Assembly: GCA_028284945.1 (NCBI GenBank)
Contig: JANQQJ010000023.1
Location: 1 to 64,000, forward strand
DNA: 64,000 nt
Direction of reading: 5' to 3'
Origin: Alphaproteobacteria bacterium
Lineage (GTDB): Bacteria > Pseudomonadota > Alphaproteobacteria > SMXS01
Shown here: one piece after another, positions 7,517-10,045 of the stretch
Layout: each line of letters opens with the position of its first letter
How positions within the stretch are numbered: the first letter of the stretch is position 1
Program-made: the position numbers and the translations under genes
The notes under the pieces: generated by a model
Seen by the model: the letters and a program-made list of their open reading frames with translations, nothing else
Told to the model about the DNA's origin: nothing
Database searches by the model: none

Positions 7517-9367
7517 CTATCGCCCGGCCTGCGGCTGCCGGTTGAACACATATTTGTTCAGCGTCCAAAGCAGAGGCACCAATAAGTAATCATATGTGAC
7601 CCGGGCAATGGTTTTGATCCCGGGTGTCGATACCAGGGCAGCCAGCCAACGGTAACGGGGCATCCGCCGCCATATCGCAATGAACGCCTCGACGCCGACC
7701 AGAATCTCGCCATCACCGTTAACGGCATGCAGACGGCGCTTTAGCTCGTCCCTTTTGACGCCCAAATGCGCCGGAACAACCGGATTGGCGTCGATATCGC
7801 AGAACCCCAGCTTGCCGCCGCGCCTGACAACCTCCCGCTGATAATGCGCGATTTCGCGGCTGCAGACCGGGCATTCGCCATTGAAATAGGCGGTCACAAT
7901 ACCCGGCTCCTCTGCGGGTGCCGGCAACAGCAAATCCTCCAGCGCGCTGCGAAGACTGAGATGTTTGAATGTGAAACCGCGCCGCGCCAGCCGGTTTGGC
8001 ACCACCCGCTGCCCGTCGAACAGAATCTGTGCCATCTGCCCCATAACAAGCCGGGCGGGCGATGCTGGGATGCGCAGCCAAACCGGGCGGCGCATCACAG
8101 CCCCAATCATCTTGTTGAAGTCACGGTTGGTCACAGGCTCCGGCGTGGTCAAGTTAAAGGGTCCCTCGGCCTGTTTGTCCTCAATCAGGCTCAGCATTGC
8201 GGCGACCGCATCCTCAATATGGATCCAGGACACATATTGACGCCCATTGCCTAGTGTTGCTCCAAGAGCAAATCGGTGCGGCATGGCAAGCCTCGGTAAG
8301 GCCCCACCATCGGCACCCAACACGACCCCGAACCGTAGATTACACACGCGGATGCCGAGAGTCTTGGCGTCGTCCGCAGCGGCTTCGCGCGCCCGGCACA
8401 GTTCAGATTGGAAAATGTCCTGCGGGCCATCGGCTTCGGTCAACACACGGTCGTCATGAAGCCCATAGAACCCGATGGCGGACGCGGCCAACAGCACGTC
8501 GGGACGCTGATATCGCGTCAACAGAAAGTCGTTCAGCGCCTTTGTGGTTTCAACACGGCTGTCCAGCAGCACTTTCCGGCGGGCCTTGGTCCAGGGGAGC
8601 CCCAATATGGGCGCGCCGGCCAGCGCAATCACCGCATCCAGTGGCTGCGAGGCCGGGATATCATCGAACGTTGTGACGATCTCCACGTGCGGGCCGAACA
8701 GGTCATCAGCTGTCTCGGGGGTCCGTGTGAAAACGATCACCTTATCGCCCCGGTGCAATAGCGCGCGCACGAGATGGTGGCCAATGAAACCCGTCGCCCC
8801 GGTAACCAGCACGGTGTGGGGCGCCTCACTCCTGCCTATCTCGATTGGATACCGTTGCCACGCCGGCGTCTGACGGCGAGTCAGGCTCACCACTGCAATC
8901 GCGTTACGAACGGCCCACAGTCCAACGCCAACACCAAACAGAGTGAGCACCCAACTAATCCAACCGTGCTCGGCGGGGACCAGCGTCGTCGGTTGCCCGG
9001 TCCACGCCAACCAAATCGGCCAGAAGGTGATCAACAGGGCACCGAAGATGATCGCCAAAATCGTATGCAGCACGCGTTCAAACGGCGGGAGCTTTCGCGT
9101 CCTGTCTTCAATGATGAAGTCCGCCAGGGTGATGCCGATCTCCAGCACCAACAGGCCGGCGAACGCCCAGGCCCATAGGCCGTGCCACTCGCTCCAGGCA
9201 AACCCGAGAAAAATCACCGCATAGATCGCCTCACGCGCAGCATGCAGCGCCAATTCGTTCCGTGCGGATGGCTTTGAGGGCAAGCGTTCGGTCACTTCGT
9301 GATGCCAGAAATTATCGATACCCCCTAATACGCCTTGAACCAGGAGCAGGATCAGCAACATGTCCAT
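7517..9367 (-). CDS. membrane/NAD(P)-epimerase (TIGR01777 type)/DCC-family thiol protein fusion
   Basis: One 616-residue frame joins three modules. The N-terminus (about 1-160) has four to five membrane segments. A Rossmann-fold SDR follows, with VLVTGATGFIGHHL at about 186-199 and a tail typical of the TIGR01777/SDR39U1 epimerase group. A DCC-family (DUF393) module begins with YFNGECPVCSREIAHY at about 494, with cysteines near 499 and 502. DCC proteins have a thioredoxin-like C-x-x-C and often occur beside or fused to membrane or redox proteins. The ATG at 9367 has AAGGA 7 nt upstream and is preferred over the ATG at 9382. A perfect palindrome shared with the neighbouring regulator lies 24 bp upstream. 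Function unknown; inferred to be a membrane-anchored redox enzyme. Confidence 0.8.
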   Translation of the reverse strand: MDMLLILLLVQGVLGGIDNFWHHEVTERLPSKPSARNELALHAAREAIYAVIFLGFAWSEWHGLWAWAFAGLLVLEIGITLADFIIEDRTRKLPPFERVLHTILAIIFGALLITFWPIWLAWTGQPTTLVPAEHGWISWVLTLFGVGVGLWAVRNAIAVVSLTRRQTPAWQRYPIEIGRSEAPHTVLVTGATGFIGHHLVRALLHRGDKVIVFTRTPETADDLFGPHVEIVTTFDDIPASQPLDAVIALAGAPILGLPWTKARRKVLLDSRVETTKALNDFLLTRYQRPDVLLAASAIGFYGLHDDRVLTEADGPQDIFQSELCRAREAAADDAKTLGIRVCNLRFGVVLGADGGALPRLAMPHRFALGATLGNGRQYVSWIHIEDAVAAMLSLIEDKQAEGPFNLTTPEPVTNRDFNKMIGAVMRRPVWLRIPASPARLVMGQMAQILFDGQRVVPNRLARRGFTFKHLSLRSALEDLLLPAPAEEPGIVTAYFNGECPVCSREIAHYQREVVRRGGKLGFCDIDANPVVPAHLGVKRDELKRRLHAVNGDGEILVGVEAFIAIWRRMPRYRWLAALVSTPGIKTIARVTYDYLLVPLLWTLNKYVFNRQPQAGR

Positions 9368-9391: not shown

Positions 9392-9415
9392 TTATTTCTG
9401 TATATACAGAAATAA
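9392..9415 (-). promoter_or_regulatory. perfect 24-bp palindrome, operator of the fusion gene
   Basis: Core ATTTCTGT-N4-ACAGAAAT extended by two more paired bases on each side. It lies between the regulator's stop and the fusion gene's start. The same 8-bp arms recur at 9983-10002, so both sites probably bind the GbsR-type regulator encoded between them. Confidence 0.75.
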
Positions 9416-9429
9416 TCTGACAAATTTTT

Positions 9430-9969
9430 TTACTTCGCCTTTGCTTTTCCACCAGGCAGCAACCGGGCAATACCGCGCCCCATCTTCATCAACCGGACAA
9501 GGGTGGGCTTAGGCAGGCTACTGACCTGTTCGTACCAGTCGTTCATGGTGTCGACAAAAGTCAGCATGGTTTCCATGCGTTGAGCGACATCGGCGGGCGT
9601 TCTATCCGACCCTGCCTCGGCGACGCACTGACGCAGCGTCATGATCGTCGGGTCTATCTCCCGCTTTTTGCGCTCTTCGACGATGGTCAGCAGAATTTCC
9701 CAGGTATCCTCCAGCGCCTGGAAATGGTCACGTCGGTCCCCCATGACGTGAATAACACGGACGAGCCCCCAGCCCTGCAGTTCTTTGAGGCTGTTGGAAA
9801 CGTTCGACCGGGCAATTCCCAGGGTTTCGGTGATTTCGTCCGCGGGCAGCGGTTTGTCGGACAGGTAGAGCAGTGCATGAATCTGTGCGACAGAGCGGTT
9901 GGTGCCCCAGCGGGTACCCATCTCTCCCCAGTGGAGAACATATTGTTCCATGGCGGGTGTTAAATTCAT
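9430..9969 (-). CDS. GbsR/MarR-type winged-helix transcriptional regulator
   Basis: A 179-residue DNA-binding protein. Its winged helix (about residues 22-90) contains RSVAQIHALLYLSDKPLPADEITETLGIARSNVSNSLKELQGWGLV, typical of the GbsR subgroup of MarR-like regulators, followed by a helical C-terminal region. GbsR of Bacillus senses choline and represses glycine-betaine synthesis; the ligand here is unknown. The gene lies 62 nt upstream of the membrane/SDR/DCC fusion on the same strand. Near-identical perfect palindromes stand before both genes, so autoregulation plus control of the fusion gene is the likely arrangement, probably as a repressor. Confidence 0.85.
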   Translation of the reverse strand: MNLTPAMEQYVLHWGEMGTRWGTNRSVAQIHALLYLSDKPLPADEITETLGIARSNVSNSLKELQGWGLVRVIHVMGDRRDHFQALEDTWEILLTIVEERKKREIDPTIMTLRQCVAEAGSDRTPADVAQRMETMLTFVDTMNDWYEQVSSLPKPTLVRLMKMGRGIARLLPGGKAKAK

Positions 9970-9982
9970 GACTATTTCCGTA

Positions 9983-10002
9983 ATTTCTGTCTAGACAGAA
10001 AT
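9983..10002 (-). promoter_or_regulatory. perfect 20-bp palindrome, operator of the GbsR-type gene
   Basis: ATTTCTGT-N4-ACAGAAAT, 13 bp upstream of the regulator's start. Arms are identical base for base to those of the site at 9392-9415, while the central four bases differ (CTAG against ATAT). This supports specific protein binding rather than chance. Confidence 0.75.
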
Positions 10003-10045
10003 ATATGAAATATGGAGCTCACGAGTCAAGCCCTCTGCATGATGA

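Follow-up and report, generated by a model that had tools for sequence, protein, structure and literature searches.

In the 64,000-nt stretch of alphaproteobacterial DNA analyzed here (the window), two near-identical palindromes flank the gene of a GbsR-like regulator, raising the question of whether they are the operators of this regulator and which genes it would control through them. The original prediction had described both palindromes exactly, with the same 16 arm bases, different centers and a longer extension at O2, and its two gene calls, the GbsR-like regulator and the membrane/SDR/DCC fusion, hold by profile matches, the MarR_2 score of the former lying above the cut-off (Table 1).

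Table 1. Coordinates of the features at the regulator locus, numbered along the window
Feature	Positions	Strand	Description
O1, putative operator	9983-10002		perfect 20-bp palindrome 5' of the regulator gene, ATTTCTGTCTAGACAGAAAT
O2, putative operator	9392-9415		perfect 24-bp palindrome, TTATTTCTGTATATACAGAAATAA, past the regulator stop and ahead of the fusion gene
GbsR-type (MarR superfamily) regulator, 179 aa	9430-9969	-	MarR_2 43.6 bits, cut-off 27; fold nearest 1KU9
Probable target: membrane-type segment + TIGR01777 SDR + DCC1-like fusion, 621 aa	7517-9382	-	profile matches
Promoter-like site of the regulator, TTGACT-N18-TATATT	10000-10029	-	10/12 matches; second hexamer overlaps O1

The regulator combines an N-terminal winged helix-turn-helix, matched by MarR_2 at residues 26-80, with a long C-terminal helical region and an MJ223-like fold, as is characteristic of the GbsR type. 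Its nearest solved structure, both by profile and by fold, is MJ223 (1KU9; fold E 7.5e-10), on which GbsR and OpuAR of Bacillus, members of the same family, were also modeled (PMC6207618). In the AlphaFold2 model (mean pLDDT 91), the recognition helix comprises residues 54-67 and Cys115 lies inside a long helix from residue 89 to 119. By analogy with the GbsR type, the protein would act as a repressor that is released by a ligand. GbsR and OpuAR regulate osmoprotectant genes in response to choline or betaine (PMC6207618); we rejected an assignment to the CudC/GbsR choline regulators (NCBIfam NF047500), as the window regulator scored 46.9 bits, far under the cut-off of 218. Its gene is flanked by the SDR-DCC fusion, HspQ and a small unknown ORF.

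Relatives of the regulator fall into two sequence groups, one with HWGEMG..A53, as in the window, and the other with HFGEMG..S53. Since the genes of the latter precede cydA in most loci read, the HFGEMG..S53 group corresponds to CydE, the autorepressor of Alishewanella sp. WH16-1 that was footprinted on TATTTCAGAAATTTCTGAAAGTTCA (PMC6096048). The cydA-linked homologues read share 44-49% identity with the window regulator across the aligned region and lack the residues W14, A53, C115, F138 and P153 of its subfamily; CydE controls cytochrome bd, whereas the window regulator is not next to cydAB. With no adjoining cydAB and the cydA-linked proteins in a separate sequence group, membership in CydE was rejected, and the regulator is a member of a distinct GbsR-type subfamily of the MarR superfamily, related to the cytochrome-bd repressors. 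As a side observation, 68 of 79 subfamily members carry Cys115, which the CydE-like set lacks; this cysteine is, speculatively, a candidate sensing residue, and thiol sensing through it cannot be universal because members of the Sphingomonas group have Leu.

The fusion scored 305.5 bits with TIGR01777 (cut-off 207.35) and 55.6 bits with the C-terminal domain DUF1731, which places its central part in the TIGR01777 SDR family (YfcH / SDR39U1), with 3OH8 and 4B4O as relatives in the PDB. Residues 499-600 match DCC1-like PF04134 (74.4 bits, cut-off 27.8), predicting a thiol-disulfide oxidoreductase-family domain. The N-terminus is a 186-aa hydrophobic segment with no Pfam match, and the same segment is fused to SDR in many regulon members. 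An alternative start of the gene is possible at 9367, after AAGGAAAG.

O1 consists of ATTTCTGT CTAG ACAGAAAT and spans 9976-10009 once the outer TTC/GAA half-sites are counted, while the core of O2 is ATTTCTGT ATAT ACAGAAAT (9394-9413), extended as a perfect palindrome by flanking TT/AA; either center is self-complementary. Short AT-rich palindromes arise by chance in AT-rich genomes. We compared their frequency with controls. The pattern ATTTCTGT-N4-ACAGAAAT with up to 3 mismatches occurs in the window only at O1 and O2, whereas the shuffled window gave 0.09 matches on average and never two (0/100 shuffles). In the genome (3.56 Mb, 44 contigs) the pattern is found three times, each time perfectly, with no further sites at 1-2 mismatches, and the reversed control pattern has zero matches in it. 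Of five sites with 3 mismatches we inspected two, one within overlapping ORFs and one between pilus-like genes; both were imperfect and were taken as chance occurrences.

We then examined 80 homologous loci, taken by protein similarity alone from at least 590 confirmed relatives; these 80 loci represent Alpha-, Beta- and Gammaproteobacteria, Planctomycetes and Verrucomicrobia. The palindrome lies within 150 nt upstream of the regulator in all 80 (0, 1, 2, 3 and 4 mismatches in 33, 33, 8, 4 and 2 loci, respectively), so that 66 have at most one mismatch and 78 at most three; among 6,687 control windows drawn from these loci, 2 come within 3 mismatches. A second copy follows the regulator stop within 120 nt at 30 of the 80 loci, and thus the comparison bears out the motif at both positions. 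Among the loci lacking this copy is a large group where the following gene begins before the regulator has ended (gap -3, across the stop codon); a single operator is then able to serve the pair. The palindrome is kept in all homologues while the flanks have diverged, and a terminator scan calls neither palindrome; together with the shuffled and reversed controls, this contradicts chance palindromes or transcription terminators, a reading to which we assign a negligible probability.

In the 63 loci left after removal of near-identical contexts, the TTTC and GAAA cores are invariant or nearly so, conservation is weak at the four central bases, and outer half-sites TTC (-7 to -5) and GAA (+24 to +26) lengthen the symmetry. 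About 17-18 bp 5' of TA-ATTT lies a TTGA-like signal, itself weakly conserved, which suggests that the operator covers the -10 region in the homologues. The promoter-like site of the window, with a TTGA-like signal at the spacing kept in the homologues, is the only sigma-70-like site between 7400 and 10500; shuffles yield 1.5, making it weak when taken alone. Separately, three subfamily members of genus g67 (L171, L173 and L174) carry, at the same position 5' of the regulator, a degenerate variant of about (G/A)TTTCAGAAT(A/T)TTC(C/G)GAA(A/T)T, perhaps reflecting a diverged specificity.

The footprinted site of CydE, TATTTCAGAAATTTCTGAAAG, has the same arm-and-spacer design as the window operators (PMC6096048), and comparison with this footprint and with the cydA-linked loci shows that the window operator matches the ATTTC-N10-GAAAT design. 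The inner bases differ, being CAG..CTG in the CydE operator and CTG..CAG in the window operators. This difference follows the protein: operator position 6 covaries with residue 59, which lies in the recognition helix, Met or Ile occurring with CAG..CTG and Asn or Thr with CTG..CAG. Of 12 Met59 or Ile59 cases among the loci read, 11 have CAG..CTG-type arms, the exception being L043; the swap is never found with Asn59 and is complete in two loci with Thr59 (L067 and L070), so that these three loci depart from the rule. Fisher's test on hand-pooled counts, which ignores phylogeny, gave p of about 5e-12 for both groups together and, with the same reservations, 0.0014 within the subfamily of the window, whose two Met59 members (L048 and L057) both have the swap, L048 at both operators. 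Since residue 59 covaries with the arm type, we suggest, from few cases, that the regulator reads the operator directly.

The palindromes could instead be the sites of another regulator that merely adjoin this gene, and CTGT...ACAG is indeed similar to the central part of LexA boxes in enterobacteria. The spacing is N4 rather than N8, however, and the sites covary with the recognition helix of the regulator. Their distribution also argues against a LexA-like box. Among 27 genomes with the subfamily we found 43 sites with at most one mismatch, 38 of them at the regulator, while the reverse control gave one. A motif common throughout the genome and unlinked to the regulator would have spoken against the original prediction; the three sites of the window's own genome and this linkage show otherwise. 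Of the five unlinked sites, four stand before cassette families (TM-SDR/TIGR01777, DCC, DUF4166), namely TM and SDR genes (L151), DUF4166 plus TM-SDR (L152), TM-SDR (L153) and DCC plus TM-SDR (L154). Conversely, G053, with DUF4166 and TM-SDR genes, and G204, with saccharopine-dehydrogenase-like genes, gave no regulator match and have no site beside those genes; the two assemblies are incomplete (85% and 69%), and the regulator may have been missed in them. Given the spacing and the confinement of sites to the regulator locus and cassette genes, we rejected a LexA-like box, and we hold sites of any other regulator to be very improbable; the palindromes are very probably the binding sites of the regulator itself. 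One further one-mismatch site, in a genome that has the regulator (L150:4009-4028, G061:C82), lies between two minus-strand ORFs and is not followed by a cassette gene.

The third perfect site of the genome, ATTTCTGT CATG ACAGAAAT at C35:186487, is unlinked to the window locus. This site, ATTTCTGTCATGACAGAAAT, lies directly 5' of a DUF4166 gene (L005:8554-9228), which is followed by a saccharopine-dehydrogenase-like gene (L005:9238-10341), and TTGACA stands 5' of the site at a promoter-like spacing. Because a perfect site precedes this pair, the regulon extends beyond the window locus, and we dropped the two-site, "small self-contained" regulon of the original prediction. The target genes recur as a cassette from taxon to taxon: among 129 downstream ORFs at 39 non-redundant loci we counted DCC1-like 15, Epimerase 15, DUF4166 12, DUF1731 9, DoxX_3 7 and DUF2269 5, which are lower bounds because the ORFs were called mechanically. 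L061 and L065 likewise have the TM-SDR-DCC triple fusion behind the regulator, with DUF4166 ahead of the fusion; in the window's genome the DUF4166 unit is elsewhere and has retained the operator. The downstream genes of many homologous loci belong to none of the recurring families.

The rest of the prediction, that is, operators, autoregulation and the fusion gene as target, is strongly supported at the level of sequence by conservation at both positions, rarity, unlinked sites at cassette genes, lack of sites where no regulator was matched, and covariation. We consider it highly likely that the palindromes are operators of a repressor that occludes promoters and that three units are co-induced. 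A regulator dimer would sit on each palindrome, a single recognition helix contacting each ATTTCTGT arm. At O1 it would cover the -10 element of its own promoter and repress its own gene, at O2 it would shut off the membrane-SDR-DCC fusion gene, and at the C35 site it would shut off the DUF4166/saccharopine-dehydrogenase-like pair. A putative inducing signal would release it, whereupon the three transcription units would be induced together. Autorepression through promoter occlusion is most likely in view of the operator position and the precedent of CydE, CioR and OpuAR, which are repressors (PMC6096048, PMC11837568, PMC6207618). CioR of Chromobacterium violaceum controls cioAB, encoding cytochrome bd, and the text searched gives no operator sequence for it. 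Alternatively, the regulator might bind the palindromes as an activator, or act both ways. The comparison shows conservation of the sites and says nothing on the sign of regulation, nor does the fusion gene have a defined promoter; yet O1 overlaps the -10 element in the window, the homologues conserve this pattern, and all characterized relatives read are repressors. We therefore regard activation or a dual role as unlikely and favor the repressor.

The kind of regulator is known, while its regulon appears to be undescribed. The window target set matches none of the neighborhood classes of PMC6207618, in which 73 of 179 homologues had uninformative contexts. In the searched literature, covering few subscription journals, we found no mention of DUF4166, no description of the regulon, and nothing relevant for TIGR01777/DUF393/DUF1731, for GbsR with the target families or for MarR with the motif.

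The correlation of residue 59 with CAG/CTG provides a testable specificity rule for GbsR-type proteins. Speculatively, the enzymes make up a redox or lipid-modifying pathway associated with the membrane. It is conceivable, though we put it at somewhat less than even, that a further functional class of GbsR-type regulators in Proteobacteria, Planctomycetes and Verrucomicrobia senses a redox or membrane signal, possibly via Cys115, and induces an undescribed membrane-associated pathway of TM-SDR (TIGR01777), DCC, DUF4166, DoxX-like/DUF2269 and saccharopine-dehydrogenase-like proteins. The operator joins DUF4166, the TIGR01777/DUF1731 SDR, DCC and DUF2269 into one co-regulated unit across phyla, unlinked loci included, and because it ties these families together, identifying what induces a single repressor would give a lead to their shared function.
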